A DNA stretch of 64,000 nucleotides. It comes from Pyropia haitanensis (Eukaryota > Rhodophyta > Bangiophyceae > Bangiales > Bangiaceae). The DNA lies in NCBI GenBank assembly GCA_008729055.1, contig SDUX01000002.1, forward strand, positions 5,235,874 to 5,299,873. The letters run 5' to 3'. Position numbers and translations under genes: made by a program. This document shows, piece after piece, positions 14,121 through 46,089 of this stretch. The stretch's first letter is position 1. Every line of letters begins with the position of its first letter. Below the pieces are notes generated by a model, which was not told where the DNA came from, ran no database searches, and saw nothing but the letters and a program-made list of their open reading frames with translations.

Positions 14121-14365
14121 GCCACTGTCCGCGGTGCGGTCATCGTCGTCGTAGCCCGCGACGGCGGCGTCCCCGTCGTCCCCGTCGTAGTCGTCGTCGT
14201 CGTCCGAGTGCCGCCGCCGCCGCCGGCGGCTGCCCCGCGCGGGCGGCGCCCCCGCCGCCGCCCGCCGCACCGCCTTGTCCGACGCCGCCGCCGCGACGGC
14301 GGCGGCAATCGCCGCGGCGGTCGCGGGGTCCCGCTCTTTTTGGGGGATTGGGGGGGGGGTGCCAT
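13105..14365 (-). CDS. Low-complexity Gly/Ala-rich protein, unknown family (apparent frameshifts)
   Basis: I do not recognise the family. The best model starts at ATG 14365 (CCGATGGCACCC) and changes frame in the adjoining C run to read PPIPQKERDPATAAAIAAAV. It continues RRRRRRHSDDDDDYDGDDGD, Gly-rich tracts and LSLAQLTPAAAAGVAGG. It then needs a second shift at the 7-G (+ strand) run 13424-13430 to reach PGSRLLVLSADGSVAPAVV and WVSLSLPPEVLAALAAAGAP, ending QPEEVDMFA at 13105. The ordinary-looking segments on either side of each run support the minus strand. A (CCA)n microsatellite, 13678-13739, encodes polyglycine. The + strand gives only Pro/Arg-rich readings. A basic-acidic mixture suggests a nuclear protein, but that is weak. 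Exons further upstream are possible. Confidence 0.45.
13678..13739. repeat. (CCA)n / (TGG)n microsatellite, about 20 units
   Basis: An uninterrupted CCA trinucleotide tract lies within the minus-strand low-complexity gene. In the preferred frame it encodes Gly (GGT). Its neighbours are GGC/GGN Gly codons, so it looks like a slippage expansion inside an existing polyglycine tract. Confidence 0.95.
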
Positions 14366-24099: not shown

Positions 24100-24102
24100 T
24101 TA

Positions 24103-25859
24103 GAGCATCTCCACCAATGCAGCCAAAAGCCAAAAGCCAACTACGTAGCAGCCGTTTCACCGGTTTGGCTTTGGCTCTGACTGGTGGGGCGTGTGACGGT
24201 CTAAAACAAAGACAGTATCACAATTCTTAATCGCTCTGGAGATCACCTTAATGCGCCTCGAGAGCACTCGAGTTTTTGGCTCTCAACGGCAGCGGAGCCA
24301 ATCCCCGCGCCAAACGAGCCTTTTTGGCGCGGTGTTTTGGCTTTTGGCCAAACGCGGAGCCAACCTGCGCCAATAGGAAGCGTGACCCGTGGCTTGCAGA
24401 CAGTCCGACAGGACGCTAGTACGGCGTGGAATTGGCTGCTCTCTCCAGGCGCCCCACTATCCGTCTGACACCAGTTTTTCACAAGTGGCACCAGTTTTTC
24501 ACAACTTCCCATCTGTGGGATGCCCACAGTGTTTACATAGAAAAACTGACAAAAACGCTATTCGAGATCGTGCCCCAGTCGTCTATCGACTCGCGCCAAA
24601 AATACAAGTCGAGGCGTAGGCAAACGGTGAGTCACACTGCTTGACGCGCCAACTCAAGGGCTCTCCAGCGGTGTAGAGAGACCCCAACAAGGCCGGCCTC
24701 CGGGCGCGCTATGTCGCGCCGCGTAGAAAAAGGTGCGGCTTCCCGGAGGGAATTAGAATTCAAGTACCTGGCCTGACGCTACTTCTGGCTGATTGATGGG
24801 CGAGCCCAGCGCTCCTCGGCGCGGCGTACAGCCGGCGCTCGAGAGGCTACGAGGTTTCTTCCCCTCCTGTAGACACTATACCCTCTTCTAGCACACCACC
24901 GGGACACAGACGCCTCCTCTACCCATTTGTCTGCCTTTGAACGCTGCAGAAGCGCATGTGCGGTTCCGAGGATGGACGGCAGTCGCGCCACAAGAAGCCC
25001 GCTTGCCCCAGCTTACCCCACTTTCCTTCCCTTTGCGGCCTGCGCACCGTATCCCCTCCGTCCCCTGACTGCGGACATACCTGGTGAGGGCTCCACATCT
25101 CCTCCTCCACCGGCAGCGGCCCTGTCTGGTCGGGGCGCCCCATCCCCCTCCCCCTGGCAGCGGTAATGCCGGCTCGGACCCCCCACCCGCCGCCCGCTCC
25201 GACGCCCCCCCCCACCCGCTCGGACGCCCCCCCCCCGGCCCCTCAAGTTGATCTGGGTGACCCCCCCACCTCCCCCGCTGCGAGCCGACGTGTGCTGCGG
25301 ACCCCCCGATGGAGCAGCGGTGGCATGGATGACCGCCCGGTGGCGATGGGACGGTCCGCACACCGTGCTCTGAGATCTGTCAAGAGACTACCCGGGTCCG
25401 ACTTGTCCGAGGCACGATCTCTGCGTGCTCATTGGTCGATAACCGCGGGATGCGGGCCCAGGAATGTAAATACAATCAAGTTTTTCCGGGGTTTCTTTGC
25501 AACATCGCGCTCTGGGGCCTGTCCTGGTACAGATCTCGAGTTGTGAAAAACTAGTGTCACCCCCCAAAGGAGGGTACCTTTTTCAAAAAAGAAGCGCTCC
25601 TCGCCTTGAGAAACGGAAAAAACGCCCGGCCTCGTGAGGAGCTACGGAGTCCGCTCATATTTTTTTGGAGAAAAAAACGTCCTCGCATCCTTCTCTCATA
25701 CCCGAGTTGTGAAAAACTGGTGTCAGACGGATAGGTGCTTTGCTTGAGACGTGACGTGCGCGGCGTTGGCTTCTCGGTTGGAGTGGCCATTCACAGTCGC
25801 CCACGTTGCGCCACGTGTATCGTTTGGGTTGGCTTTTGGCTCCATTGGTGGAGATGCTC
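24103..25859. mobile_element. Non-autonomous TIR transposon, PIF/Harbinger-like (TTA target duplication)
   Basis: The ends are perfect 17-bp inverted repeats GAGCATCTCCACCAATG (24103-24119 and complement 25843-25859). Each is followed, after one mismatch, by AGCCAAAAGCCAA. Both ends are flanked by TTA (24100-24102, 25860-25862), a 3-bp target duplication typical of PIF/Harbinger elements. Subterminal sequence repeats GGCTTTTGGC and GGAGCCAA several times on both arms, possible transposase-binding sites. The 1,757-bp interior has no transposase ORF, so any movement would need a protein supplied elsewhere. Superfamily rests on target-site length and TIR form. Confidence 0.82.
24460..25731. mobile_element. 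Nested TIR element flanked by TA
   Basis: A perfect 25-bp inverted repeat, 24460-24484 and 25707-25731, contains TCTGACACCAGTTTTTC. It lies inside the TTA-flanked element, with TA dinucleotides immediately outside both ends. A second, imperfect inner pair of CACCAGTTTTTCACAA copies lies at 24489-24506 and 25539-25556. TA flanks fit a Tc1/mariner-type insertion, but could also be chance, with the whole being layered subterminal repeats of the outer element. No transposase ORF. Confidence 0.5.
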
Positions 25860-25862
25860 TTA

Positions 25863-29685: not shown

Positions 29686-30534
29686 ATAGACCCACTGCGC
29701 CGCCACCGTGCCCCTGCCGGCCGCCCTGCACACACGAGAGCCCGATTTCATTCTATTAGTAGAAATCGAGGTGGGGACGATGCGTGGTGATAACTGATGG
29801 ATGGGTGCGCGAGCTCTGGACCGTTCTCAGCCGCAGCCTGTATGTAGCGGCGCACAGCGCTCGGGCTTGAAGCAGCATCAGCCAGTAGAACCTCTGGGAT
29901 ACACATCTTACACAGCTATTTTCGATCGTTGTCAAGCTTTGTGAAAGTTCACTTCAAGACTTGGATAGATGGATACCTTTAGCAGTGTCCTCCAATGGCC
30001 GGACGTATTTTGGACCGAGAGGGGACTGCCGATGTCGCGCTTGTGTATGTTCTATTCGTCATGTATGTAAATACTGGTTCTCGTTAAGATGATGCGGGGA
30101 GGACACTCGCCGGTTGGGGGCGTCCGCCAGCGGCGACGGCAGTCCGCCGAAGCGTAAGAGACTAGTGACGGCTACCAGCGCCCACAGGCCGGCGGGCGGC
30201 CGCCGGCCAATGGGGGTTGGGTGTCGGTAGCGCTAGCCGCTGGCGGCGGGGGGCAGCGGCAACCGGCGGGGGTTGGGGTTGGTGGCGAGCGGCGGTCGCC
30301 GCTCTCCGAGAGGCAGGCGCCGGCCGGATGTGGCCGGCTGATTACCGCAGCCGAAGCTCGCGGCGATGATAAAAAGTAGTAGTGGTGGTCGTCAGCGGCC
30401 GGAGGCAGGGCAGCAGTTGCCGGCTGATGGAGAGTGGACGCTCGTCGCGCTGGTGGCTGGTACCAGTCGGCGGCGGCTAACAGAGGGGTTAGGGGATGGC
30501 AACGGGCGGAAGTGGATGCTGGTGGGGGGAGGGT
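29686..30534. other. Flank left of the candidate large transposon
   Basis: 29750-30100 is AT-richer sequence with no ORF. From 30110 the sequence becomes G-rich, with GCCGG and GGTTGGGGTTGG blocks that lead into the minisatellite. The true outer end of the transposon may lie in this interval. Confidence 0.4.
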
Positions 30535-30809
30535 GTAACTGGGCGTGCCCACACATGTCGTCGAGGTTCGCGTTCGGCCAATGGCATGGTCGTACGCGAA
30601 AGGGGCCAGGGAGCCCCTCGATCGTGCTCCTGGGCTCACCCAGCGATCGTCTGAACAGCGCATATTCGTCGACTCTGCCCCACGATCGTATCGCCACCTG
30701 TCCTCGTCGAGACCGGCCGGATGTCTCCCCGGCCCGCGACGCCGCCGCGGGCCTGCCGCGTTTTGGCGCCGCCGCCGCAGCGGGGGGACGGCGCGCCACC
30801 GCCGCTCGC

Positions 30810-31800
30810 GGCGGGGGGGGGGCGCGCCGCCCCGCGCGCCGGGGCGGGGGGGGGGGGGGCGCACGCTGCCGCGCGCGCCGGCGGGGGGGGGCCCGCCGCC
30901 GCGCGCGCCGGGGGGGGGCGGGGGGGGGCGCCCGGCGGGGGGGGGGGGGGGCCGCGCCGGGGGGGCGCGCCGCCGCGCGCGGCCGGGCGGGGGGGGGCGC
31001 GCCACCGCCGCCCGCGGGGGGGGGGGGGCGCACGCTGCCGCGCGCGCCGCGGGGGGTGGCCCGCCGCCGCGCGCGCCGGGGGGGGGGCGGGGGGGCGCGC
31101 CCGGGGGGGGGGGGGGGCGCGCCGGGCGGGCGCGCCGCCGCGCGCGGCCGGGCGGGGGGGCGGCGCGCCACCGCCGCCCGCGGGGGGGGGGGGGCGCACG
31201 CTGCCGCGCGCGCCGCGGGGGGTGGCCCGCCGCCGCGCGCGCCGGGGGGGGGGGCCCGCCCCCCCCCGCGCCGGGGGGGGGCGGGGGGGCGCGCCCGGGG
31301 GGGGGGGGGGGCGCGCCGGGCGGGCGCGCCGCCGCGCGCGGCCGGGCGGGGGGGCGGCGCGCCACCGCCGCCCGCGGGGGGGGGGGGCGCACGCTGCCGC
31401 GCGCGCCGCGGGGGGTGGCCCGCCGCCGCGCGCGCCGGGGGGGGGGGCCCGCCCCCCCCGCGCCGGGGGGGGGCGGGGGGGCGCGCCCGGGGGGGGGGGG
31501 GGGCGCGACGGGCGGGCGCGCCGCCGCGCGCGGCCGGGCGGGGGGGCGGCGCGCCACCGCCGCCCGCGGGGGGGGGGGGGGGCGCACGCTGCCGCGCGCG
31601 CCGCGGGGGGTGGCCCGCCGCCGCGCGCGCCGGGGGGGGGGCGGGGGGGCGCGCCCGGGGGGGGGGGGGGGGCGCGCCGGGCGGGCGCGCCGCCGCGCGC
31701 GGCCGGGCGGGGGGGCGGCGCTCTACCGCCGCCCGCGGGGGGGGGGGGGGCGCACGCTGCCGCGCGCGCCGGCGGGTGGGGGCCGCCGCCGCGCGCGCTG
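30810..31800. repeat. G-rich minisatellite, six units of 166-195 bp
   Basis: The anchor CGCACGCTGCCGCGCGCGCC starts at 30860, 31029, 31195, 31388, 31583 and 31751 (first and last variant), so units are 169, 166, 193, 195 and 168 bp. Two units carry an extra block containing a C8-C9 run. Between anchors, G runs of 7-14 alternate with CGCGCGCC, almost all on the + strand, so G-quadruplex potential is very high. Degenerate copies continue to about 31930. Proline/Arg-rich readings on the other strand are by-products. Confidence 0.93.
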
Positions 31801-31930
31801 GTGGGGGGGGCTGCCACCGCGCGCGCCAGGGGGGCCCGCCGCTGCACGCGCCGGGGCGGCCGCCGCAGCGCGCGCCAGGGGGGGGGCCTCGGGCGGGGGG
31901 CGGGGGGCCCGCCACCGCGCCGGGGATCTG

Positions 31931-32548
31931 GGGCCACCACCGCCGCTCTCACCGGGAGGGTGGGTCCGCCACCACCGCACGCACCGGGGGTGGGGGGGCT
32001 GCGTCGCCGCCGCCGGCACGGGCGGCGCTTCCGGCGCCGCGCCGGGGGCCCTGCGGCGGCACCTGCGGCACCCCCCGGCGCGGCTGGGCGCGCGTTTTTT
32101 TGGCGCCGGTCGCGGGCGGGTGTGCCGCCGCAGTGGGCGGTCCTTCCTCTCCCGCGCTGTGACGTGCTGTGCGGCGTTCTTGGCTGACCCGCCGGCGTTG
32201 TATCGTAGCGGTGCGTCCGTTGTTTTGGCGCGGCCCCTGTGTGACGGGCTGTGAGATCCCTGTAGCCGACGGTTGGGCTCTCCGTCTTGGCGGTCGCGGT
32301 GCGGGAGTTCCGTGCATGGCCATCTCTCCGCCTGCTCGTTGCCGGGGGTGTGTGTGGTGGGTCCGTAAGGCTTCCCTACAAGAAGCGTCGTCGACGGCGG
32401 CCACTGCGATGAGTGCACCAATCCCCTACTCGCCCACTCGCCTACCCCCCTCCCACGTGCACTCACCTACCCGTCGCCTCGTTGGCCCCGATTGCACCCT
32501 CCCGTCCCCGCTTCCTCGATCCACGTGCGTCCCACCACAACTTCCCTG
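31931..32548. other. Region between minisatellite and first transposon ORF
   Basis: No gene seen. Sequence normalises in composition after 32080. 32440-32540 is C/T-rich before the ATG at 32549 and is the likely leader of that gene. An in-frame TTG at 32492 is not taken as the start. Confidence 0.4.
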
Positions 32549-35500
32549 ATGGCGGTGAATGTGCTCTCCGTGTCGTCGGCTGACGCGACCTCCATTCACG
32601 TCGTAGTCACCCCGCCCTCCACCGCTGACAGTGTGGCTCCCTCCGTTCCCGGCGGGGCAGCTACAACGGTCTCCCAACCTGCTCCTCCTCGTCGTGCCGC
32701 GGCTGCCCGCATAGCGGCGCCCCCCGCGACAGGCCACGTGCCGGCGGCTCCGGCAGACGCCGCCCCTCTCGCTGGCGCGGCTGCGGCGGCGGTGGCGGCA
32801 TCGGCGACGGCGGTGGCCACGGCGGCGGCGGTGGCAGCCGCAGCGGCCCCACCTGGGGCCTGCCTCAGTGCTGACTTCCCGCCCGCTGCCGCTCCCCACA
32901 TGACGGCGCGCCCCGTGGCAGGGCAAGCGCCGACGGCTGCGGTTGACGCCGCCCCTATTGTTGCGGCGGCCGTGGCGGCGGCGGCAGCATCGGCGGCGGC
33001 GGCAGCACCCCGACGTGCCACCTCCCCGCCCACCGCTGAGGTCGGCGTTGCAGCACGCCTGCCGGCGGGCCCTTCGCTGGCGGCCGCGACGGCGGCTGGA
33101 CCCCGACGTGCTGCCTCCTCTCTCGCTGGCGCTGTTGGCGTTGCCGCTCGCCTCCCGGCGGGCGATGTACCCACGGTGGCGGTCGGCGTGGCGCCCCGCG
33201 TTGCGGCAGCTGCCCCAACGACGGCGGCAGCGACGGCGGCAGCGGCACGCCCTCGTGCGCCCTCCGCGTCGGCCGCGGCTCCCAGCGCTGTGGCGCATCC
33301 CGCAGCAGGCCGAGTGCCGACGGCTCCGGTTAGCGCCGCCCCTTTGGTTGCGGCGGCCGCGGCGGCCGCCGCAGCATCGGCGGCTGTGCCACCACCCCGA
33401 CGTGCAACATCTTCTCCAACGACGGCGGCAGCGACGTCCGCAGCGGCACATCCTCGTGCTACCTCCGCGCCGGCCGCGGCTCCCCGCGTTTGGGCGCGCC
33501 CTACGGCAGGTCGAGAGCAGACGGCCGCGGTTGGCGCCGCCCCTATCGTTGCGGCGGCCGTGGCGGCGGCGGCAGCATCGGCGGCGGCGGCAGCACCCCG
33601 ACGTGCCACCTCCCCGCCCGCCGCTGAGGTGGGCGTTGCAGCACGCCTGCCGGCGGGCCCTTCGCTGGCGGCCGCGGCGGCGGCTGGACCCGGACGTGCT
33701 GCCTCCCCTCCCGCTGGCGCTGTTGGCGTTGCCGCTCGCCTCCCGGCGGGCCATGTACCCACGGTGGCGGTCGGCGTGGCGCCCCGCGTTGCGACAGCTG
33801 CCTCATTGACGGCGGCAGCGACGGTGGCAGCGGCACGCCCTAGTGCGCCCTCCACGACGGCCGCGGCTCCCAGCGCTGAGGCGCGCCCTACGGCAGTCCA
33901 AGCGCCGACGGCTGCGGTTGGCGCCGCCCCTGTTGTTGAGGCTGCCGTGGCGGCGGCGGCAGCATCGGCGGCGGCGGCAGCACCCCGACGTGCGACCTCC
34001 CCGCCCACCGCTGAGGTGGGCGTTGCAGCACGCCTGCCGGCGGGCGCTTCGCTGGCGGCCGCGGCGGCGGCTGGACCCGGACGTGCTGCCTCCCCTCCCG
34101 CTGGCGCTGTTGGCGTTGCCGCTCGCCTCCCGGCGGGCCATGTACCCACGGTGGCGGTCGGCGTGGCGCCCCGCGTTGCGACAGCTGCCTCATTGACGGC
34201 GGCAGCGACGGCGGCAGCGGCACGCCCCAGTGCGTCCTCCACGACGGCCGCGGCTCCCAGCGCTGAGGCGCGCCCGACGGCAGTCCAAGCGCCGACGGAT
34301 GCGGTCGGCGCCGCCCCTCTGGTTGCGTCGTCCGCTGCTGCCGGGGCGTCGCGCGGTGTTGACCCAGAGTCAGGGACGTCGTCGGGCGCTCGTGGTCCGA
34401 CTGGGCAGGGCATGCGGAGCGGTCGCGCAGCTGCTGATCGCCCGGGGGCGAGGAGGAGCCTCGCTGGGCATGCCCGCGCACGTGCTCGGTCTCTGGCCGC
34501 GGCTGGCTACAAGAGCCCGCTATTGCACCGGCTTGCCATGTACGTGGCCGCTGTCAAGGGAGGCGGGAGGGTGGACGACAAGACGCTCGCGGCGACGGCG
34601 GACATGGTGGCCGCTGCCACGAGGCTTGAGGAGCTGAACCCGACCTTGCGTATGATGGTGCATATGTCGGGCGTCGACGGGGCCGGCGCGGTCACTTTCG
34701 CGAGCATCTACGGGACGGACCGGGCGGTCGACTCCGACGTGCTCCGCGTGATGTCCCAGGTGCATCAATTTGTGCGCGGACGTGACTCTTTGCGCGGTGT
34801 CACGTTGCCCGTAGGTGGACGACCTGCCCAATTAGTTGATGACGACTCCCAAGGCTTTGGGACCCTTCCCCCGGGCATGACGCTGAGGGACTACGTGGAC
34901 CTTATGACATCCGCGGCGGACGACTTGCTGCCGCCGCCTCTGAGCATCCAGAGGATGGCCAGGCGATTGTCGAGGACTGCTGCGGGCCTGTCCCCCGTGG
35001 GGCCATCGTCTGAGAGCGACTCTTCCGGGTCGGAGAAGCTCCCCGGCACGGCGTTCACCCTCGAGACGGCCGAGCGCCCCAGTCCCCACAACCCGTCGGA
35101 GCAGGCTTTCAACTTCGTCAACTCGTTGCTGTACATCAACTCGGCCACCGGGACGCTGCTGCGCGCTGTTCTGAAGGCTGCAATCTGCCATCTGGTCACG
35201 CGGGCTGGTACGCTGCCGCGGTATGTGACGGAGTGCCTTGCCCGGTGGTGGCCACACAAGCTGCCCACCGCTGTCGTGCCCGACGATGGCATCCCGGGCG
35301 AGCGGTGGCCAGTCGAGGTCCTAGTGGACAATCGCCTTCTAACGAAGACCAGGCGGACGCGCGACAACCGGGCGGTCGGCTCATCCACTGTGACCCTGGA
35401 CGCCATTCCGACGAACAACTCGGCGTGCCCGCAAGACTGTGCGGTGGCGTCGATTCTGCTTCTCTGGGACAAGGAGCCTTCTGCGCGCACGCCGATGAGG

Positions 35501-36151
35501 CAATGCCGGTTCCGTGCCGAGGTCGTGCAGATCGGGCAAAGCCGCCTTAGCGCCTTGTCCGCGGCGGCTGTGGGCACGTCGCCCAACACCAGCACGGCGC
35601 CGGCGCCGGCCCCTCCCAACACCGGCACGGCGGCGGTCACGGCTGTCAACACCGGCACGGCGGCGGTCACGGCTCTCAACACTGGCACGGCGGCGGCCGG
35701 CGTTTCCAACACCGGCACGGCGGCGGCCGGCGTTCCCAACACCGGCACGGCGGCGGCCGGCGTGTCCGACACCGGCACGGAGGCGACCACGGGGGCGACG
35801 GCCGCCGCCCGCGTCGCAGCCGTTCCGGCTGCAGGCTCACCGTCCGTACTGGTGGCTCCCGCCGCACCTGCATCCATCGTCGTCGCGGCTGCTCCGTCGG
35901 CGGCCCATGCCGTTGCCATTGCGCCTCGGCCGAGCACTGTGGAGCCGCAAGCGTCCGGGGGCGCCAGCACACCTGCTGGCATGTCTGCGGCTTTGGCCGC
36001 GCGAGCGGCTGCTCGAGCGTCTGCCGCGAGTGTAGTTTACACCCCCAAGCCACGCGCGTCGCGTGCGCGTGGCAAGCGCGCTGCGGAACCCGTTCCTGGA
36101 AAGGGTCCCAAGCGCGCGCGTCGGGCTGCTGCCGCATCATCAGCACCTTAG
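32549..36151 (+). CDS. Unknown 1,200-residue repeat protein, probable transposon accessory ORF
   Basis: I recognise no family. ATG 32549 (CCTGATGG) opens MAVNVLSVSSADATSIHVVV. Residues about 119-595 are Ala/Pro-rich and built from tandem 129-residue units (see repeat entry). Residues about 650-1010 look globular: SPLLHRLAMYVAAVKGGGRV, TLRDYVDLMTSAADDLLPPP, EQAFNFVNSLLYINSATGTL, then CPQDCAVASILLLWDK with paired cysteines. Residues about 1020-1080 are 10-residue repeats of NTGTAAAGVS type. The last 40 residues are basic (SRARGKRAAEPVPGKGPKRA), a likely bipartite nuclear localisation signal. The gene lies 2.8 kb upstream of the transposase on the same strand, inside the shared inverted ends. 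A DNA-binding or regulatory partner of the transposase is my inference. No catalytic motif is visible. Confidence 0.7.
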   Translation: MAVNVLSVSSADATSIHVVVTPPSTADSVAPSVPGGAATTVSQPAPPRRAAAARIAAPPATGHVPAAPADAAPLAGAAAAAVAASATAVATAAAVAAAAAPPGACLSADFPPAAAPHMTARPVAGQAPTAAVDAAPIVAAAVAAAAASAAAAAPRRATSPPTAEVGVAARLPAGPSLAAATAAGPRRAASSLAGAVGVAARLPAGDVPTVAVGVAPRVAAAAPTTAAATAAAARPRAPSASAAAPSAVAHPAAGRVPTAPVSAAPLVAAAAAAAAASAAVPPPRRATSSPTTAAATSAAAHPRATSAPAAAPRVWARPTAGREQTAAVGAAPIVAAAVAAAAASAAAAAPRRATSPPAAEVGVAARLPAGPSLAAAAAAGPGRAASPPAGAVGVAARLPAGHVPTVAVGVAPRVATAASLTAAATVAAARPSAPSTTAAAPSAEARPTAVQAPTAAVGAAPVVEAAVAAAAASAAAAAPRRATSPPTAEVGVAARLPAGASLAAAAAAGPGRAASPPAGAVGVAARLPAGHVPTVAVGVAPRVATAASLTAAATAAAARPSASSTTAAAPSAEARPTAVQAPTDAVGAAPLVASSAAAGASRGVDPESGTSSGARGPTGQGMRSGRAAADRPGARRSLAGHARARARSLAAAGYKSPLLHRLAMYVAAVKGGGRVDDKTLAATADMVAAATRLEELNPTLRMMVHMSGVDGAGAVTFASIYGTDRAVDSDVLRVMSQVHQFVRGRDSLRGVTLPVGGRPAQLVDDDSQGFGTLPPGMTLRDYVDLMTSAADDLLPPPLSIQRMARRLSRTAAGLSPVGPSSESDSSGSEKLPGTAFTLETAERPSPHNPSEQAFNFVNSLLYINSATGTLLRAVLKAAICHLVTRAGTLPRYVTECLARWWPHKLPTAVVPDDGIPGERWPVEVLVDNRLLTKTRRTRDNRAVGSSTVTLDAIPTNNSACPQDCAVASILLLWDKEPSARTPMRQCRFRAEVVQIGQSRLSALSAAAVGTSPNTSTAPAPAPPNTGTAAVTAVNTGTAAVTALNTGTAAAGVSNTGTAAAGVPNTGTAAAGVSDTGTEATTGATAAARVAAVPAAGSPSVLVAPAAPASIVVAAAPSAAHAVAIAPRPSTVEPQASGGASTPAGMSAALAARAAARASAASVVYTPKPRASRARGKRAAEPVPGKGPKRARRAAAASSAP
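32906..34330 (+). repeat. 387-bp in-frame tandem repeats in the accessory ORF
   Basis: Unit starts (GCGCGCCC or GTGGCGCATCCC) fall at 32906, about 33293, 33494, 33881 and 34268. Steps are 387, 201 (a partial unit), 387 and 387 bp. Each unit encodes 129 residues beginning ARPTAVQAPTAAVGAAP and including PRRATSPPTAEVGVAARLPA. High nucleotide identity and constant length indicate recent, frame-preserving duplication. Confidence 0.88.
35587..35790 (+). repeat. 30-bp in-frame repeats encoding NTGTAAxxxx
   Basis: Six to seven tandem copies of a 30-bp unit beginning AACACCGGCACGGCGGCGG encode NTGTAAVTAV, NTGTAAVTAL, NTGTAAAGVS, NTGTAAAGVP and so on. They lie near the C-terminus of the accessory ORF. 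Confidence 0.9.
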
Positions 36152-36475
36152 GCGGCGCTTTTGGGAGGCTGCTCTGTCGCTAGTATAGTCAACGCTCGTG
36201 AGACGTATGGAGAAAGGTTGTATTGTTTTTTTGTTCTTCGTATCCGTCCACATTCGTGGCTATCGTTCTAGCTCTCTTCTCTCGCACAAACAGAGATGCA
36301 TCGACGACAACATGAGCCCGTTCAGTCCCGCGCACAACTCAAAAAAGTACGACGCAGTCCGCAGCTCTCAACCCGTCCGCTACAGCTGCTGGCCGGTGGT
36401 GTTGGTTAGGGAGGCTGCCAGGCATCCAGCCATCCTCTCACTACCAACCACCTAAAATGGCTTCACAGGAAGCCG

Positions 36476-37087
36476 CTATTGCTGCCGCACCAAGCCGTTC
36501 GATGCCACGTAAGTCACCGTTGCTAACTGACTCCCTCTCACCTCCAGGACGACCAGTCGACAGGTTGACCGGTCGCCAAAGTTGTCCCTGTCCACACCCG
36601 GCACCCCATCCAGGTCGTCAAAAAGTGGGGGGGCGTCAATCATCCCACTCCGTCCATCCAGCCCTGCTCGCGCGTGCGCATGCAGCCCCCAGAGAGGCCG
36701 TCGCCAGGACCGCACAGGAAGGGGGCAGCTTCGTAGCGGCCGTTGGGGGGAAGGCCATATCGACACAAGGTCGTCGTGGTGTCGCATGGAAGGAGCGGGG
36801 GAGCGCAGCCATGGCTGGCCTACAGAAGCCCTTCCCCGCCTCGCCTCGAACAGCTCCCAGTCCGCCCCCCCAAACGGACCGGCGCCAAGGAGAGAGACCG
36901 CGGGCGGGCAACGCTTCCGTTCTACGATAGTGCGTTGTTGGCGGTGGGCTGCGAATAGTTTGGCTAGATGGCGTTCGACGGGTGCGTCCCACGCGAGCGT
37001 GCTGCACGACACTTGGACGCTTGTCCAAAGGGGGTTGCTCGGGGGTCGGCGGACCTCTCGCGATGGAACAATCCGCCACCACATCAT
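36476..37087 (-). CDS. Hypothetical ORF, 203 residues
   Basis: Starts at an ATG inside the 35-bp palindrome (MMWWRIVPSREVR). It contains PVERHLAKLFAAHRQQRTIV and MIDAPPLFDDLDGVPGVDRD, which look more protein-like than the surrounding readings. I do not recognise it. A donor-like GAG|GTGAGAGG lies near the 3' end (about 36548), so the last residues could be intronic. It may be a remnant of another transposable element. Confidence 0.25.
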   Translation of the reverse strand: MMWWRIVPSREVRRPPSNPLWTSVQVSCSTLAWDAPVERHLAKLFAAHRQQRTIVERKRCPPAVSLLGAGPFGGADWELFEARRGRASVGQPWLRSPAPSMRHHDDLVSIWPSPQRPLRSCPLPVRSWRRPLWGLHAHARAGLDGRSGMIDAPPLFDDLDGVPGVDRDNFGDRSTCRLVVLEVRGSQLATVTYVASNGLVRQQ

Positions 37088-37102
37088 GTGGTGGCGGATT
37101 GT
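37068..37102. repeat. Perfect 35-bp palindrome
   Basis: Arms of 17 bp (A plus CAATCCGCCACCACAT, 37068-37084; its complement 37086-37102) are separated by a single C. It would form a cruciform or hairpin. No matching arm was noticed elsewhere in the window. Confidence 0.95.
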
Positions 37103-38053
37103 GGTGAATCTACTTGCCGGTGATAGTTGTAGTCATGTGCGCTGTACATGTGATGACAATGCGCCGAGCGTGGGGCTGACAAACGCAGTTAGCATCCACC
37201 CACCGCCCCGATGAAGAATTGGCGACAGAAGGAAGTACCTTGTGGGAGGCGGTGCCTTGTTCCCCCCCCGTAGCTCGGCTATGGTTTCCGGCTCCCAAGT
37301 GGTTCAAGAAGTTGTCGGCCGCAGTGGCAGCCTTCTATGCTGCACCTATCCACCCCGCCTGCAGAAGAGTTGCTGTGGGCGTCCGCGAGAGACCGCCATC
37401 CAAGACACCTACAGATGGACTGTTGACACCACAGAGCGTCACAGCCAGCGCAGCAAGCAGCTGACAAACAGTCCACACATGAAGTCTGCGACGGAGGGAC
37501 AGAAGAAGAGCCACTCGATGAGGGCTTAGGCAGAGTTGGCGGCCGAGACCCTGGGTGCCTCGCTAGTGATTCCTCCTTTGTTGCGCGTCTTCTTGTATCT
37601 CGCTTGACTAGTACGTCATATGCGCGCGAGCTCAGAGCTTGCGTTTACTCACACCAATGGAACTATATCAAACGAGGTCACCCTGAGGGCAACGCTCGGG
37701 AGCCGTCGCGCCGCCTGGAACAACAAAAGTACTGGACACCTCGCAGCACGGATCGATTGCGAAGGAAAGCTCTTTCCCAGCACTTTGGACGGAATCTTCA
37801 CCCCCGTATGGACGTCACTCCCACGCACATGCCAGATCTTCGGCCCAGGCAGGCGTCCCAACGTCGGCCGGCGGTGGCCCCAGACTGTCACAGCGGCGGT
37901 CGGGAGGCGCGCCAGCCGAGACCGCCGTGATGGCGGAGCCTGGGCAGGGCACTGTTTGCTTCGTGGCCGACACCGCGACAGAGTGGGTCACGCCCCCCCC
38001 GCCTCTGAGTTCTGCTCCCTTCCCGTACCGATCATGGGCGGCCTCCCTAGCAA

Positions 38054-38332
38054 CTATCCCTCATGCGGCACGTTTTGGTTGCAGAGGGCTCCTCCGCAAC
38101 GGTGGCCAGCTGGTACATGCAGCCCCATCGCGGTGTCGAGCGACATCCTGGATGGCACTGCCACTGAGGCGGATGTGTGCCCCTGAGGGCGCCCACCTGA
38201 CTGCGCGGCTGTCGAGAGCAAGTTGTCGATCGCCGTGGGGGCCCCATGATGACCATGCATGTAGTGGTCTTGCTCTCTGAGACTTCGTCCATCGTCGCAG
38301 ACAATTTCCCACTTGACGGTGTATTCCACCAT
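38054..38332 (-). CDS. Hypothetical small ORF, 92 residues
   Basis: ATG 38332 (TCTCATGG) opens MVEYTVKWEIVCDDGRSLRE and reads QDHYMHGHHGAPTAIDNLLS, with ordinary composition and two His/Cys-containing segments. It runs opposite to the two transposon ORFs. No family recognised. The neutral composition, unlike the Arg/Pro readings around it, is the only support. Confidence 0.28.
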   Translation of the reverse strand: MVEYTVKWEIVCDDGRSLREQDHYMHGHHGAPTAIDNLLSTAAQSGGRPQGHTSASVAVPSRMSLDTAMGLHVPAGHRCGGALCNQNVPHEG

Positions 38333-38451
38333 GAGAATTTTACTTCAGAAAGGACATCATGTCGCGAGAAATACACGTGTCTACCGCTCAGACGTCTTCC
38401 TGGCCACCCGTTTCGTGCTGATGGAGACGCCCTCGTCGACGCCGGCCGCCG

Positions 38452-38754
38452 ATGTCGCCATCGCTGCCGTCCGCCTCTGCTGTGGCGCCGCCCCGCTTCT
38501 CGCCGCCCGCGCCCACCCCCGCCTCCAGTGTGGCCACCTGCGTGTCTGTGCCGCCGGAGCACCTCCCCTCCCCCACTGCCCATCTCTGCCCCCCCCATCC
38601 GTGCGCTCCCGCCCGCCGCCGTCACCGCGGCTCGGTCGGCGCCGACGGTCGGCTCCACGCGTCTGCCATCCTCGAGGCGCGGCGCTTCCCGTCCGCGGCC
38701 ACTGCGCTGGCCGCCGTCTCCAAGGTCATTGCCTGCGGCGTGGTTGCGGTGTAG
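38452..38754 (+). CDS. Possible upstream exon of the transposase gene
   Basis: The open frame ends GSVGADGRLHASAILEARRF and ALAAVSKVIACGVVAV before a stop at 38752. Its start codon is not ATG (an ATG 12 nt downstream of the upstream frame at 38420 is out of frame). A GTAGGT donor overlaps the stop and a strong acceptor ends at 38984, but the splice would not preserve the transposase frame. Kept as a weak candidate. Confidence 0.15.
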   Translation: MSPSLPSASAVAPPRFSPPAPTPASSVATCVSVPPEHLPSPTAHLCPPHPCAPARRRHRGSVGADGRLHASAILEARRFPSAATALAAVSKVIACGVVAV

Positions 38755-38998
38755 GTGGCGTTCGCCTCCCCGACGGCGTGTGTCATTGGCACGCTGCCGG
38801 CACGGCCCCCGGGGGTGGCGGTAGCGGCGGGCAAGTGCTGGAGGCGCGGGGCGCGGCGGCGGTTGCCGCAGTTGTTTCTGCGGATCGCCTGCCCGCGGCG
38901 CGACCATCCTTCCCGAGTCATCAGGCGCACATCACTTGCGCTGGAGTCACCCCCTCCGGCTGGTTCTCCTCCCCTCCTCGGCAGCGGTCGAGGGCGTC

Positions 38999-41900
38999 AT
39001 GGACGAGGACGTCGTGGACGGGGCTGGCGCGCCTGATCGGCCACCCGGCGGAGCCTCGCCCGCCGAGTCGGATCTTCCCTGGCGGGTGGCGACGCTGCGC
39101 CGCTGCACACCCGCACTGCCAATCGTACTGCCACAAGACCTGCAGACGGCGCTGGCAGCAGCTACTTTGGGGGAAGACGACCCCCCAAGTCGCCCGCGGC
39201 GGCGACAACGTAAGCGGGCGCGCCTCAACCCCCCCACTGGCGGTACCCGTGCTGCGCCTCGACGCCGGGCGCGCGTGTCGGGAGGGGGCGAGAGCTCGTC
39301 GAGCTCTCCCTCTACACCCGACCCTCCTCCGAGCGCGACGGAGGCGTCCGACGTCGACAACGCGACGGCGGGCGTCACTGAGGACGAGCTCGACATGCGG
39401 CAGCGCGTCCTAGACTCCATCGCGATGTACAAGCGCGTGATATTGCGCGATCTGGCAGCCGTGTTGGGTGGGCAGGCGCGGACGACCTTCTTCGGCGGCG
39501 CTCTACGCGTTACCTGTGTTGCTGAGGGAGCTGCTGTTGTGGTGTCCGAGGGGGAGCGGGCGTGCGTGACTTGGTGCACCCGAGCACACGGCTCCGCCAT
39601 ATTCCTGTGCACCTGTGGAGGACGGCTTGGGGCCGAGTCCATCGAGGTGCGGTCATTTGTGGGCTCCTCGTCGACGTGCGCTCACGCCCGCGCGCTACAC
39701 GCGTCTTTCTCGGAGCTGGCGCAGGCGGTCGGCGTGGTCAGCATCATTGGCCTGCTGGAGAGACACGCGGCTCTGGACAACTCTGCGGCTGAGCCGTCTA
39801 CAGCCTGCGTGGTGCATCTGGCGACCAAGACGGCGAGCAAGATGGCTGTTTTTGCCGTGCTGGACGGCGGTGCGTGGGCGGCCGTGACGGTCCGGCGTCG
39901 TCTCGGCAAGAAGAAGACGCCCAAGAGAACTATGCTGCGGGCCGCCTGCACGCAGCTGAGCTGCGCCAAGATTCACTGGTGGTGCCCGCACGTCGCGGCC
40001 GTGTCGGCTTGGAGCGCGGAGCTCCGGGAGGCGATGGCGCTTGCTGCCGGTTTGGGTAGTGGACTTCTGCCGGAGGGTCTACAAGACGTGCGGCTTCCCG
40101 CGAGCGCGCCAGCCCGAGCACGCTTGACGCCAGTGCAGCAAGCCGCAGCGGACGCCGCGTTCTCCGACGAGAAGCGGTGGCGCAACAGCCGGAACTTGCT
40201 GCCGTGCTCCGGCGAGATCGCCGACTGCTTGTTGTTTGACAAGCTGGCGTCAATGGCCAGGGAGGCGGGTGAGCGGGCGGTCTTGCCCGAGGTGCTGTGT
40301 GAGCAGGCGTGCTTCCAATGCGGCTCTTTGTACAACGGGCTGAACGTCAAGAACACGGGGGCAACCCTTCATACCCTCCAAGGCCGGGTTGCGGTTTCGC
40401 TTCGTCAGTGGACGTGCGGCTGCGGTAAGGACGTGCTCTACGACGGTGCGCATTCCTCCCTTTTTGCGTCCACCACCAGGACGGTCTTCACGAGGACGTT
40501 CATGGACGTCGTGATTCAGATGGTCTTCACCGGGCACAGCACGCTTTCATCGTCCACGTCCGTCATGTGCTTCCTCCTGGAGTGCACCGACTCGCTGTCG
40601 GGGGCGCCCGCGGGCTTGGCCCGTCAAACTCTCACTGCTGCTGTTCACCGCTTTGCTCGCACCCTCATCGTGCCGGCGGAGCTGTACCGGTGCAAGAAGT
40701 GCAAGCAGGCGGGGGATTGCCCGTACTCAGCGATTGTGGTCGACGGCGAGGTGCTCTCCATCTTGCGGAACCTGTCACAGCCGCTGGTGAGGGTGACGGA
40801 CGATGTGCGCGTCGTGCCGCTGGACATCAAGCACGGGTGCTGTGTGCCTGTCGCCGCCATCAGGGGCGCGGTGCGCAAGCGCTTGTCAGCTGATCGCGGT
40901 GCCGTCGTGCGGTTGACGAAGGGCGAGAATTCTGCGCTCGCTCGGCTGGGGCAGGAGCTGGTGTCGGTCCCTGATCCGCACGTGGTGGGGGAGGAGCGTA
41001 CGTCGGCCCGCGCTGTGAGGTGGGCGGCGGCCTTTCTTTTTTTCTCTTTCTACACCAACGAGGAGGGGGACTGCCTTCCCGACGTCGAGGGTGCGGATGC
41101 CGATGACGACAACGGCAACGGCGGGGAGGGCAACGATCTCGGCGGCAATGACGGCCCTGACGGCGGTGGCGACGGCGGCGCTGCGGCTGCGCTCGGCCGT
41201 GTCGGTGGCGACATGGTCATCGCAGCGGCAGCTGTTGATGACGGAGGCGGTGCTGTTCAAGGCGGCGTGCAGCAACCTCCTGCAGACGCCAACCTCGTCG
41301 TCGCTCCTGGCGCGTCCGCCGTGTTCTTCAGCCGGCAGGTCACCGGCGCCTTTCACGGGCAAGGAAACGAGGGGCGACCTGCGGACAACTGGCGCAGCGT
41401 GCGCCAATTTTTGACGACGTTTGTCGCCGAGCCTGTCCTGGGCGTATTTGCAGGCCTGCGTGTGGACCGCATCGAGCTGCTGGCCAAGCAGCTGGTGCTG
41501 GGCAAGCCCGTCAGCGTGTGGCGCCCGTTTGCAAAGGCTGTCGAGTCGGTCGGCATGGTGTGGCCGTTTCTGCGCCTGATCGGCTCCGCTGACGATGTGG
41601 ACCCGCTCATGACGCGGGCTATTGGGGAGCTGCTGCTGTTTTCATGCAGCGTTGATAAGACCTGGGAGACCCTGTGGCGGCAGCAAGCGCCCGACGCGTC
41701 AACGGCGTTCGAGACGCAGTGGAAGGTGACGTCGATCGAGAAGTACCGGGCTTTGAGGTCCACTCGCCCCGATCCAGCGCCGCCGTCGTCGCAGCTGCTT
41801 TCCAGCGTGTACTCCTACGAGCGGGCGACTGCCCAGGCGTTGGAGGTTCGCAGTGGCCACGTATGGCCGGACCTGGCAGCCGTGCGTACCTTCATGACGG

Positions 41901-43792
41901 ACGGCAAGTCGGACGCGGTCAGCGCGGCACGAGCCGCCAAGATAGGGGCTAACCGTGATGCGCTGCAGGATCTACTCAGCAGGGAGCTTGGGGCTGACGA
42001 CTGCCGGCACGCCTTCCTTGACTCCCAGGCTTTTATGCCGGGCATCGAGAACTTCCTTTGCCCGTGCGGCATGCTGATCGGCTACGACTTTTTGGACCGC
42101 GCGGAGAGCCCTGCGCACGTGCTGGCATCCCTCGTCCAGCGCTTCCCCGTGCTGCCGTCGGTCGTGTACTTTGACACGGCCTGCCAGTTGGCCCGCAACG
42201 CCTCCCGGCGGATTCCCTGGCTTGTCTCCCGGTCAGGGACGGCCTTTAGCGTGGACCGGGCGCATCACCAGAAGAATCAGCACAAGTGCTCTCCTGTCTT
42301 TGATGCCGACGCCTACCCTTCGCGGTCTGTGAGGCATCGTACCGCTTGCGCCGAGAGCCGTCACTCCCTGAACAAGGCGTACAAGACGCACCTCGTTCAT
42401 CTTCGGCAAGACCACTTCATCGTCCAGATGCGTCTTCTTGGCGCGATGATCAACCTGCGGGTGATGATGCGCAAGGCGCTGGGGAAGGAGACCAACCACC
42501 GGCTTATGTGCGCCTTTTTCCACGCACGTGTACAGTCCTACTGTGACCGGCGGGACTGCTCTTGCTTTCATGGAGAACGCCAAGCAGCGGACCGCGCCGC
42601 CGCAGCAGGGGATGCCGCAGCTGCCAACCTGGACGACGACGTCATCCGCGCAGGCGGCAACGACGCCGCAGTAGCCGCCGGTGCTGGCGGTGCTGCCGGC
42701 GCTGCCGGTGGAGAACATGCCGCTGCTGATGCGGCTGCTGGCGCCGTCGACGCCGATGCCGCTGGCGTCGCTCGCATGAACCACGCCGCGGCCGCCCCTG
42801 GTGACGTCGGACCTGTCCAGCTGGGAGCTCTCCATCTGGTCCAAGACGCTGTGGCCGACGCGGTGGTGGTCGCCGCACAAGCTGCAGTAGATGACGCGGC
42901 CCAGGCGGCTATTGAGCCCATCGGGTACGCGGTTGGTCTTGCTGTCGGGGTGGCTGTTGGTCAGGCAGCAGTGGAAGGCGCCTATGCTGCCGCCGGAGAT
43001 GCCGCCGCACCGTTCGGCGCTATCGGCGCCCGTAGCGCTGACGATGTTCGTTTCGCAGCGCAGACCGCTGCCGCTCGCTCTGTTTCGTGCGCCGACGTCC
43101 AGCGTCCTGTCCATGCTGCAGTACAAGCTGCCGTGCAAGCCGCCCTTGTCGATGCTGCTCGCAGCGCCGGACGTGCCGCCGCTGCGACCGCTGGACACCA
43201 AGCGGGAGTTGCCGCCGGGCTCGCTGCTGCCCTTGCTGTGGCGAACGCCCCTCAACCTGCTGGCGTCATTGAAGGGGGTGGCGTAGGAGTCGGAGATGGC
43301 GGCGGCATGCCCGCCGGCGGGGGAGCTGGTGGTGGGGGGGCACAGGAGCAAGACACTGCAGGTGCCCAGGGTGGTGGCCCCCCCCCGATTCAAGGCGGTG
43401 GTGATGGAGCAGGCCATGTCCATGGCGCTGCTGCACTGGGCGATGACGCCGACGTTGCTGATGTGATCTTCGGTCAAGCGTCGGTGCAAGACGCGTTGCG
43501 TGCTGCCATGAGATCCTACTACGGGCGCGGTACTGTTCGCGCCTCTGACAGCGGTAACGGTGTGAGCGGTGAGGCCATTGGCGACGGGGGTGATCTTGAC
43601 GGTGGTCGTGGGGTGTTCGATGGTGAGGATCTTACGGGCGGCGTTGGGGAGCAAAGAGGCGCTGGGGGTTTGGGCGCTACGAAGAGGGGGAGGGATTCGG
43701 CGGATGAGGCGGCCTCTTCCGTGGAGAACTTCTCGAGCTCCAGCGATGAAGAGGCCGCACCGGGGGAGGTCGTTGATGTAGTACGGGAATAG
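38999..43792 (+). CDS. KDZ/HMGXB3-like transposase with SWIM zinc finger
   Basis: The uninterrupted 1,597-residue ORF starts at ATG 38999 (GTCATGGACGAGG). A SWIM zinc finger is formed by Cys204-x-Cys206-x20-Cys227-x-His229. Cysteine clusters follow at about 434-480 (CEQACFQCGSL ... WTCGCGKD) and about 562-575 (CKKCKQAGDCPYS), like the CxC modules fused to Kyakuja-Dileera-Zisupton transposases. An acidic Asp/Gly insert spans about 695-735. The core has LCPCGMLIGYDFL, then VVYFDTACQLARN (Asp1059, Cys1062), VDRAHHQKNQHKCS (His1089, His1095, Cys1097) and TACAESRHSLNK (Glu1119). This order (CP.G, DxxC, HxxxxxHxC, E) is that of the KDZ RNase H-like core and of animal HMGXB3-type domesticated relatives. 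The first catalytic Asp may be in FMTDGKSDAV. Residues about 1195-1460 are Ala-rich helices. Intact, so possibly active. Confidence 0.8.
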   Translation: MDEDVVDGAGAPDRPPGGASPAESDLPWRVATLRRCTPALPIVLPQDLQTALAAATLGEDDPPSRPRRRQRKRARLNPPTGGTRAAPRRRARVSGGGESSSSSPSTPDPPPSATEASDVDNATAGVTEDELDMRQRVLDSIAMYKRVILRDLAAVLGGQARTTFFGGALRVTCVAEGAAVVVSEGERACVTWCTRAHGSAIFLCTCGGRLGAESIEVRSFVGSSSTCAHARALHASFSELAQAVGVVSIIGLLERHAALDNSAAEPSTACVVHLATKTASKMAVFAVLDGGAWAAVTVRRRLGKKKTPKRTMLRAACTQLSCAKIHWWCPHVAAVSAWSAELREAMALAAGLGSGLLPEGLQDVRLPASAPARARLTPVQQAAADAAFSDEKRWRNSRNLLPCSGEIADCLLFDKLASMAREAGERAVLPEVLCEQACFQCGSLYNGLNVKNTGATLHTLQGRVAVSLRQWTCGCGKDVLYDGAHSSLFASTTRTVFTRTFMDVVIQMVFTGHSTLSSSTSVMCFLLECTDSLSGAPAGLARQTLTAAVHRFARTLIVPAELYRCKKCKQAGDCPYSAIVVDGEVLSILRNLSQPLVRVTDDVRVVPLDIKHGCCVPVAAIRGAVRKRLSADRGAVVRLTKGENSALARLGQELVSVPDPHVVGEERTSARAVRWAAAFLFFSFYTNEEGDCLPDVEGADADDDNGNGGEGNDLGGNDGPDGGGDGGAAAALGRVGGDMVIAAAAVDDGGGAVQGGVQQPPADANLVVAPGASAVFFSRQVTGAFHGQGNEGRPADNWRSVRQFLTTFVAEPVLGVFAGLRVDRIELLAKQLVLGKPVSVWRPFAKAVESVGMVWPFLRLIGSADDVDPLMTRAIGELLLFSCSVDKTWETLWRQQAPDASTAFETQWKVTSIEKYRALRSTRPDPAPPSSQLLSSVYSYERATAQALEVRSGHVWPDLAAVRTFMTDGKSDAVSAARAAKIGANRDALQDLLSRELGADDCRHAFLDSQAFMPGIENFLCPCGMLIGYDFLDRAESPAHVLASLVQRFPVLPSVVYFDTACQLARNASRRIPWLVSRSGTAFSVDRAHHQKNQHKCSPVFDADAYPSRSVRHRTACAESRHSLNKAYKTHLVHLRQDHFIVQMRLLGAMINLRVMMRKALGKETNHRLMCAFFHARVQSYCDRRDCSCFHGERQAADRAAAAGDAAAANLDDDVIRAGGNDAAVAAGAGGAAGAAGGEHAAADAAAGAVDADAAGVARMNHAAAAPGDVGPVQLGALHLVQDAVADAVVVAAQAAVDDAAQAAIEPIGYAVGLAVGVAVGQAAVEGAYAAAGDAAAPFGAIGARSADDVRFAAQTAAARSVSCADVQRPVHAAVQAAVQAALVDAARSAGRAAAATAGHQAGVAAGLAAALAVANAPQPAGVIEGGGVGVGDGGGMPAGGGAGGGGAQEQDTAGAQGGGPPPIQGGGDGAGHVHGAAALGDDADVADVIFGQASVQDALRAAMRSYYGRGTVRASDSGNGVSGEAIGDGGDLDGGRGVFDGEDLTGGVGEQRGAGGLGATKRGRDSADEAASSVENFSSSSDEEAAPGEVVDVVRE

Positions 43793-44040
43793 ATGAGTTG
43801 ACTTTTACAAGCAGTGCGGTACGATGTGCCTCATGGAGACCTAGACGATTTTCTACGTCAGCAAACGTGCGCTTTGCACTCGTGTGAGACGGTGTCGCGT
43901 ACGCAGGGATGGGAAAAAGACAACGTGTTGGAGAATAAAGGCCAAGGCCTCGGCAGCAGCAACCGGGAATTGCCGGCCGATCATAAACCCTGACCACAAT
44001 GCTCAGCGGCCACAATGCTCAGCGGCGAAGAGGCCGACGG
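43793..44040. other. 3' flank of the transposase
   Basis: Short stretch of ordinary composition, probably the 3' UTR. A tandem duplication of CAATGCTCAGCGGC occurs near 43998-44025. Confidence 0.5.
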
Positions 44041-44950
44041 CCAAGCGGGGGCGACGGCGGTGGCAAATGTGGGCAAAGGCCGCCGCGGCCGAGGGGGACT
44101 GCCAAAGCAGTGGCGGCCAGTACCACGCGGCAAACAGAAGAGCCGGCCGCCGCGGCGGTAGCCGCCGCGACGGCGGGCAGCAGCGGCGGCCGCGGGCGGC
44201 GGCCGCGCCAACGGGCGCGGCCGCGGCCGCGAACAGCGGCGGCCGCGGCGCCAGCGTCGGGTGCCGCCGTGAGCAGCGGCCGCGCGCAGCAGCTGCGGCC
44301 GCCACCGCCAGTAGCGGCGGCCGCAGCGGGCGGTGGCAGCGGCGACCGCGGGCAGCGCGTGCGGCCGCGGCCGCGAGCAGCGGCGGCCGCGGCTCCAGCG
44401 GCGGGTGCGGCCTCGGGCGGCGGCCACGGGCAGCGGCCGCGGCCGCGACCGCGAGCAGCGGCGGCCGCGGCAGGCAGCGGCGGCGGCGGCCGCGGGCAGC
44501 GACCGCCGCCCCGGCCGCGAGCAGCCGCGGACGCAGCCGCGAGAAGCGGCCTCCGCGGCTGCGGCCGCGGGCACCGGCGGCCGCAGCGGCGGCATGGGAC
44601 GCGGGCACGGGCAGCGGCAACGGCGGCGGCAGCGGCAGCGGCAATGCCGGCCACGGGCAGCGGCAGCGGCGGCCGCGGCAGCCGTGGCCGCGGGCGGCGG
44701 CAGCGGGGGCGGCCGCGGCGGGGGTAGCGGCTGCGGCGGCCGCGGCCGTGGGCGGCAGGGGCGGCGGCCACGGCAGCAGCCGCGGGCGGCGGGGGCGGCG
44801 GCGGCAGCGGGCGGCGGGGGCGGCGGCGGCAGCGGGCGGCGGGGGCGGCGGCGGCAGCGGGCGGCGGGGGCGGCGGTGGTGGCGGGCGCGATCGCGGCCG
44901 CGGGCGGCGGGGGCGGCGGTCGCGGTCGCGGGCAGCCGGGCGGGCTGGGT
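44041..44950. repeat. GCGGCC/GGC-rich repeat block with 25-bp minisatellite
   Basis: Dense GCGGCCGC and GGCAGCGGC repeats fill 900 bp. From about 44775 to 44930 they resolve into 25-bp tandem units (CAGCGGGCGGCGGGGGCGGC core, A at 44806, 44831 and 44856). Long ORFs exist in all frames on both strands and are poly-Ala/Arg/Pro readings, so I call no gene. Confidence 0.85.
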
Positions 44951-45345
44951 GCCGATTTGGCGCAGCGGGGGGCCCGGTGCAGCCACGGAAGTGGCCCCGG
45001 TCACGGGCCACGCGTCGCGCTCCTGTGCTTCCGCTCGTACTGCTACACACTATCCCAAAGATAGCGGGTGCGGTTGGCTCTGAGGGCGCGAGTACGAGCC
45101 CGTCGTCGTACTCACTGCGAAAGCATGCGTGCAGCCCACGAAACGCGGGAGGTGGCGGGCAGGCGGGCAGGCGGATACTGGACAGCTGCGGCAGACAGGT
45201 GTCTATCGATCGTCACCAGTATTCAATATTGTCGATTGGGAGGCCTTGAATTGAGCCATTCTGAACGATCGCCGCTGGGTTTCCTTGACGCCTTCCCATT
45301 GGCCCAGCCCGAACCTCGACGACACGGGTGGACACGTCCAGTTAC

Positions 45346-46089
45346 TACATGGGTGGGGGGGGGGATCCGAGGCCGCGGAGAGCGTCCGCCTTTGTCGGCG
45401 GCGGCTGGAGGCGCGGACGGGGGCTAGCGACAATAGCTGGTCTCAGCTGTAGTAAGTCGTACATCAAATAAGTGCATTAGGTTCATGCATTAGGTTCACC
45501 TGAGGTTGGTGGCTGCCGTCCGCTTTGTCGTAGAGTCGCGGTGGTGGCGGACGTGGCGGGAGGTTCTGGTGGTGCTCGTGTCTGCGTGGCTGCTGCCGCT
45601 GCCGCGATGGCAGCCTCGAGCTCTCCAGAGGGCAACCTTATATGCGGGTGAGCGGTTGCTGTGGGCAGAGAGCGCGTCGCTGTCCGACGTCGGGGACCGC
45701 CAACAATGGCAACTGGTGTCCATCATGTTCCACCGCTGGATGCGGACGCGTCGTACAAGCGGCGCGTGGGGGACCGCTCTGGGGGACAGTGGAAGTGGTG
45801 ACCAACGCCGCCGACGTTACCGCCCGTGCGGACGTGGTGCGATGCAATGCGCCGACCAGCCGCCTGCGACCGGGACGCGAAACAGACCAGGTGCGCACAC
45901 GGACAACCGTGCTCGACGTGCAGGCAACGAAAAAGCAAGCGGTGCGCACACCCCCTCCGCTCACTGCGCACTCGCCTCCCTCACTCCACGACGCCCTCAT
46001 CCCCCGCAAGAAAAGCACGCCGTGCGCACACACCCTTGCCGCTCAATCCGCACTCACCCCTCATCCCCCCCCACCCACCCCAGCCGCCC
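45346..46089. other. Right flank of the candidate transposon and NDRG 3' region
   Basis: Contains a 13-bp tandem repeat GCATTAGGTTCA(T/C) at 45474-45499. A roughly 70-80-bp imperfect tandem duplication, starting with AAGCAAGCGGTGCGCACAC and AAGCACGCCGTGCGCACAC, lies at about 45935-46075. That duplication is C-rich and G-poor on the + strand, like the spacer at 5895-6080, and lies just past the NDRG stop. An ORF from 45506 begins with TTG/GTG and is not supported. Confidence 0.45.

Follow-up and report, generated by a model that had tools for sequence, protein, structure and literature searches.

The stretch of DNA analysed here is a 64,000-nucleotide window of the red alga Pyropia haitanensis, bases 5,235,874-5,299,873 of contig C11 in an assembly of 52.9 Mb and 136 contigs. 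It contains two long open reading frames on the forward strand, which lie between inverted ends and very probably form a single DNA transposon of the Kyakuja-Dileera-Zisupton (KDZ) superfamily. The upstream frame, ORF1 (32549-36151), encodes 1,200 amino acids from its first in-frame ATG, a start that agrees with its homologues. The downstream frame (38999-43792) encodes a KDZ-superfamily transposase of 1,597 amino acids in one open reading frame, with its start chosen from homologues. The complete element occupies 30529-45351 on the forward strand (14,823 bp), boundaries that were set using related insertions and that carry an inverted repeat, an 8-bp duplication and ends matching those of elements on contigs C6 and C23. 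The original prediction, which was made from the letters of the window and proposed a two-gene element of about 15 kb with a KDZ-type transposase, is therefore supported: the ends bracket both frames, the two genes share a strand, and a relative at two other sites is bracketed likewise.

The inverted ends that had been predicted are real. Positions 30535-30584 and the inverted 45296-45345 agree at 43 of 50 sites (86%) in an ungapped alignment, with an E value of 6e-13 for 600 bp against 600 bp. The inner blocks reported with them (ACCCAGCG, ACGATCG and CACCTGTC) do follow in order in a gapped alignment, but the inner stretch is weak when taken alone (best local E value of 0.15). Target duplications had been proposed as a check on the ends, and scanning the offsets revealed a perfect 8-bp direct repeat, GGTGGGGG, 6 bp outward of the first-noted ends on both sides, at 30521-30528 and 45352-45359. 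Since the flanks of the element are G-rich, random pairs of flanks were examined, and 0.15% of trials gave an exact 8-mer at symmetric offsets of up to 10 bp. Together with the related insertions, the duplication places the true ends 6 bp further out on each side than had been proposed. The outermost bases are conserved separately at each end and are not inverted copies of one another, so that the first-noted inverted match ended 6 bp short. At the left end, the window and C6 elements both have GAGGGTGTA; read inward from the right, the window element starts with CATGTAGTAA and the C6 element with CATGGAGTGA, and GAGTCAGTAAGTG is the left-end start of three further KDZ copies. The left terminal inverted repeat (30529-30588, forward strand) thus joins its significant core to an outermost GAGGGT that has no inverted counterpart at the right end, and the right repeat (45292-45351, reverse strand) has CATGTA as its outermost bases on that strand. 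When the whole genome was searched at the DNA level, with very common words passed over by the program, the left end (171 bp) matched two places, namely the left and right ends of the element, and the right end (191 bp) matched the same two. Neither solitary ends nor small derivatives were seen in that search, and the end repeat, which would have counted against a composite element had it occurred singly, is found only where it brackets both genes.

Independent support for these ends comes from a relative on contig C6, which has ends and an 8-bp duplication of its own at the matching terminal positions. Around the transposase copy at C6:604520, a 27-bp inverted pair (96% identity) lies where homology to contig C23 stops. 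This pair was one of two equal scorers among 30 listed and was chosen because it coincides with the limit of C23 homology; the other coincides with nothing, and the duplication and the C23 copy afterwards bore out the choice. The C6 element (C6:593746-608310; 14,565 bp) has diverged from that of the window and is flanked on both sides by the exact direct repeat ATCCGGGT, for which the outer match is 10 bp long and the 8-bp boundary was set by terminal motifs. Contig C23 carries a copy of this element that is about 99% identical in the segments compared, C23:1-9808 and C23:50000-57662, with its left end at C23:44707, its right end at C23:9808 and the flank CGATCCGC at both. Both terminal hallmarks of KDZ elements are therefore present, the inverted repeat in the window and on C6 and an exact 8-bp duplication in all three of the insertions with both ends read, and the paired copies around both genes that the original prediction called for exist at two other sites, each with both ends and a duplication.

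Gene order is preserved along with the ends. ORF1 lies upstream of the transposase and on the same strand in the window, C6 and C23 elements, in C6 and C23 alike its match begins 1,406 bp inside the left end, and the C23 copy, like that of C6, has an 853-amino-acid open frame. ORF1 remains in frame and alignable, at about 33-38% identity, from one element lineage to the other. Two-gene units at two sites with different duplications indicate that the transposase and ORF1 move as one unit, and the sister lineage represented by C6 and C23 appears to have moved recently. Contig C23, 57,662 bp long and with a GC content of about 75% in its first 30 kb, has ends that overlap over about 8.3 kb at 99.92% identity, with six gaps and no mismatch. 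The contig may be circular, with a length of about 49.4 kb, or may represent a tandem array, and because its ends overlap, both halves of the element belong to one insertion; a gap in the overlap probably explains a broken transposase frame near the contig end. None of the eight open reading frames in C23:10001-30000 had a Pfam match at E ≤0.01, and Rfam gave no match in the window or in the C23 sequences L041-L043.

The transposase joins the KDZ superfamily through intermediate relatives. The cut-off of the Pfam KDZ model, PF18758, is exceeded at nine other loci in the genome and at none in 14 control genomes. Three of the nine (the transposases of C10, C11:7215785 and C6:2485589) exceed it across the region that matches the core of the window protein, with which they share 38% identity over 463 columns (E value of about 1e-88), so that a PF18758-homologous catalytic domain, by which the superfamily is recognised, is reached by way of these proteins. 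The conserved D, D and E expected of a KDZ core are present. D603, D1080 and E1140, which we infer to be the catalytic residues, are invariant in all 15 aligned rows (the window protein and 14 of its 33 homologues). Within the genome, all 9 readable rows have the second D and the E, and all 8 rows that cover the first D have it, after 5 of 14 rows (L012, L018, L020, L023 and L024) were left out as wrong-frame; L011 is partial. Along the protein, an N-terminal Cys/His cluster (39608-39685; C225, C227, C248 and H250 invariant in 15 of 15 rows), which we take to be SWIM-like, is followed by a CxC4-like cysteine region that runs to the proposed first catalytic Asp, in VVDGE (40298-40750), and by the second Asp (YFDTACQ) and the Glu (CAESRHS) of the proposed DDE triad (42167-42367). 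Across 25 aligned members, the CxC4 model PF18717 was matched by 10 at E ≤0.1 (best 6.2e-6).

Relatives of the transposase in public data are 'hypothetical protein' entries or unnamed; the three named among the 33 matches are hypothetical proteins of Porphyra umbilicalis with 48-58% identity over the aligned part, in keeping with a bangiophyte red alga as the host. In the genome itself, a 241-amino-acid stretch of the core gave 46 matches, which amount to 43 loci once three second fragments are merged and to 42 at most when the C23 entries are counted as one element, the closest relative being C9:4447846 at 69%. The ratio of nonsynonymous to synonymous change (pN/pS) between the C6 and C23 transposases is 0.42 (34.7 synonymous against 41.3 nonsynonymous differences), a value that fits selection on the transposase protein. 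A sequence search of the PDB returned no match to the transposase, and its predicted structure was too poor to use (mean predicted local distance difference test score, pLDDT, of 52.9).

In ORF1, a long, repetitive N-terminus rich in Ala and Pro precedes a C-terminal domain that is conserved over about 350 residues (34466-35611, the query for genome searches), and the protein ends in a basic tail resembling a nuclear localization signal, KRAAEPVPGKGPKRARR, at residue 1176. Its nine homologues in the JGI, ENA and Logan sets (six, plus three from a further search) are all unnamed. No Pfam family was matched at E ≤1 by any of six ORF1 domain sequences, and by the same search none of the six is a TET/JBP dioxygenase. 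No convincing chain was found in a sequence search of the PDB (best E value of 0.66), PHROGs gave no match for two pieces, and the predicted domain structure was too poor to use (mean pLDDT of 54.7), a fold search with it returning no match below an E value of 6. ORF1 is a new protein, from a family without a Pfam match that moves with a KDZ transposase.

We conclude with high confidence that the window contains one KDZ transposon with two genes, the transposase and ORF1 as an accessory gene. The ends, the duplications, the gene content and the two near-identical two-gene insertions at different sites of the sister lineage are established at the sequence level; a cut-and-paste chemistry is the presumed mode of movement. 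The transposase would recognise the asymmetric inverted ends, its DDE active site would cut out and paste the whole 14.8-kb unit, and repair of the staggered cuts would leave the 8-bp duplications. ORF1 would travel with the transposase as an accessory protein, most likely as a nuclear DNA-binding partner of the transposase or as a protector against silencing, a role suggested by its basic tail, its co-occurrence with the transposase and the general habit of large transposons.

The genomic distribution of ORF1 bears on this partnership. Its domain was found at six loci, the same six with the window query and with a distant homologue as query, these counts being lower bounds. Four of the six (the window, C6, C23 and C9:2349641) lie within 10 kb of a KDZ core, with about 0.016 expected per locus, although C6 and C23 are copies of each other and nominal probabilities of co-location therefore overstate independence.

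Several observations weigh against the two-gene KDZ transposon as described. The duplication in the window sits in G-rich flanks, and the ORF1 stretch of the C23 copy is known from a search match and not from its letters. Direct hmmscan of the window transposase and its pieces did not reach PF18758; with the window protein missed by the Pfam KDZ model and its relatives recognised, membership of the superfamily rests on the intermediates. The CxC4 match in the window segment is likewise below cut-off (E value of 0.023), and in a wider alignment of 25 rows (the window protein and 24 of the 33 homologues, several of them partial) D603 is invariant, with D1080 and E1140 conserved in at least 90% but not 100% of rows. 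The remaining points concern ORF1. The match at C9:2349641 is weak and lies 5.2 kb downstream of the KDZ core C9:2344464 on the opposite strand, possibly a variant arrangement. At C9:4414186 the nearest KDZ core is 33.7 kb away (a weak N-terminal transposase fragment at C9:4437006-4437203, E value of 9e-4 and about 23 kb distant, was not counted as a core), and the contig of the sixth locus, C117, has no KDZ match. Conversely, no ORF1 was found in the 10 kb read upstream of C9:4447846, the closest relative of the window transposase, and most other KDZ loci listed have no ORF1 match nearby. ORF1 thus appears to mark one part of the KDZ elements in the genome.

These same distributions, with a KDZ core missing either from the surrounding 30 kb or from the whole contig at two of six ORF1 loci, favour the most durable of the alternatives, in which ORF1 is a passenger: an ancestor of the lineage would have captured it once, as a host or foreign gene, and it would play no part in transposition. 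In Ectocarpus, giant DNA transposons, KDZ elements included, commonly carry accessory genes of unknown function (PMC12477816). Against capture without function, the persistence of an open frame across two diverged lineages and the nine homologues elsewhere suggest selection on ORF1, and, with the exception of C9:2344464, ORF1 copies close to a KDZ core are confined to the window lineage and its sister. We consider the passenger explanation a serious contender, albeit one that is probably not correct.

A far less probable alternative is a dead element whose transposase has become a domesticated gene of the host. A single copy with window-type ends was found in the genome, yet both ends and the duplication are intact, the reading frame is open, a transposase protein 98-99% identical is present in another sequence set, and the sister lineage seems to have moved recently. 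Least tenable of all is the suggestion that a KDZ element and an unrelated neighbouring gene are enclosed by a chance inverted match, of which a window rich in GC-rich repeats offers many: it is rejected, since the genome search found the end sequence at no other place and the arrangement recurs, with duplications, at two further sites in a diverged lineage.

The two-gene KDZ transposon also admits a more ambitious form. In Harbinger, CACTA and Mutator elements, second proteins are reported to be needed for transposition. By analogy, ORF1 could found a new class of partner protein in an obligate two-component KDZ transposon of bangiophyte red algae, binding the ends or subterminal repeats and being needed for transposition, with the unit also able to ride a circular 49-kb molecule; we put this forward tentatively and think it rather unlikely in full.

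Three other KDZ copies in the genome, at C10:3693382, C11:7215785 and C6:2485589, share a sharp left end and, for 6.7-6.9 kb inward of it, 99.1-99.6% identity; their flanks differ, which points to recent activity of this lineage. No ORF1 was found near them, the C6 region being partly N, with an assembly gap of 11.4 kb. Internal inverted arms of about 4.3 kb and 4.7 kb occur in the C10 and C11:7215785 copies, and the right ends of the three copies were not found within about 24-25 kb downstream (1 kb more for C10), where N gaps and the inverted arms confuse the picture. Beyond this genome, pattern searches gave 42 matches in IMG/VR and 51 in GTDB genomes, none of them confirmed as a copy.

Repeat blocks adjoin each end inside the window element, as had been predicted. 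Tandem Repeats Finder delimits a left GC-rich minisatellite at 30766-31888, with units of about 166-192 bp, and a right one at 44144-44943. Their placement is not constant: in the C6 element, repeats with a unit of about 126/253 bp occupy element positions 3319-4001 and 13229-14196, which puts the first block 3.3-4.0 kb into the element and the second close to its right end. Tandem-repeat-rich blocks thus recur between the elements at differing positions, and the 65-68% similarity of the window and C6 blocks may reflect only a shared GC-rich composition. The C6 blocks fall partly within a 1.4-kb inverted repeat of 98.6% identity (element positions 3319-4724 against 12506-13908); no comparably long, near-identical inverted arms are present in the window element. 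Between ORF1 and the transposase lies a near-perfect 35-bp palindrome (37068-37102), possibly a terminator or regulatory hairpin.

Elsewhere in the window, a segment of about 1.76 kb (24102-25860) has GAGCATCTCCACCAATG inverted ends, TTA on both sides and a nested inverted pair (24457-24484 and 25707-25734), and resembles a PIF/Harbinger-type element. An open host gene at 3322-5469 encodes a NOT3-type subunit of the CCR4-NOT complex (Pfam Not3, E value of 3e-88).

The Zisupton element of fish, attributed to Bohne and colleagues in 2012, is reportedly the founding member of the superfamily. Fish Zisupton makes 8-bp duplications (PMC12730594), as does the element described here, and is described as multi-exonic (PMC9297572), whereas each gene here is one open reading frame. 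KDZ1, KDZ2 and KDZ3 of Cryptococcus neoformans are mobile elements of about 9.2-11 kb with inverted ends of 139-241 bp and duplications of 8 bp for KDZ1 and 4-8 bp for KDZ2 and KDZ3 (PMC12810828). The Pyropia element is similarly large, with inverted ends and the 8-bp duplications of KDZ1, but differs in its CxC4-like cysteine region, its inverted ends of about 50-60 bp and its second gene, the transposase alone being named for the Cryptococcus elements in the accessible text (PMC12810828).

A transposase and a second gene on one element are also found in fungi, in which Kyakuja and Dileera/Zisupton elements carry TET/JBP genes (PMC12730594); the fungal gene is a dioxygenase, in contrast to ORF1 with its lack of any Pfam match at E ≤1. 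Zisupton-1_PGr of the Dileera lineage has 8-bp duplications, and two described Kyakuja families have 7-bp duplications and are without inverted ends (PMC12730594). Among algae, KDZ elements reach 30.3 kb in Ectocarpus, where many of the giant DNA-transposon families (KDZ, EnSpm and Sola-1) carry extra genes, mostly of unknown function, and an active KDZ element of 31.7 kb in Chlamydomonas is cited in the same work (PMC12477816). The Pyropia element is likewise an algal KDZ element of more than 10 kb, although those hosts are brown and green algae and this one is red.

The pairing of genes had been thought undescribed. Large KDZ elements, some with accessory genes, are in fact a known kind of element already in print, and what is new is this lineage and the ORF1 protein; among the papers listed by a literature search that covered few subscription papers, none was seen to describe KDZ elements from Porphyra or Pyropia. 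The gene content, the exact ends and the target duplications of a KDZ lineage are now available for a bangiophyte red alga, and the ORF1 family makes the question of whether KDZ accessory genes aid transposition directly testable.

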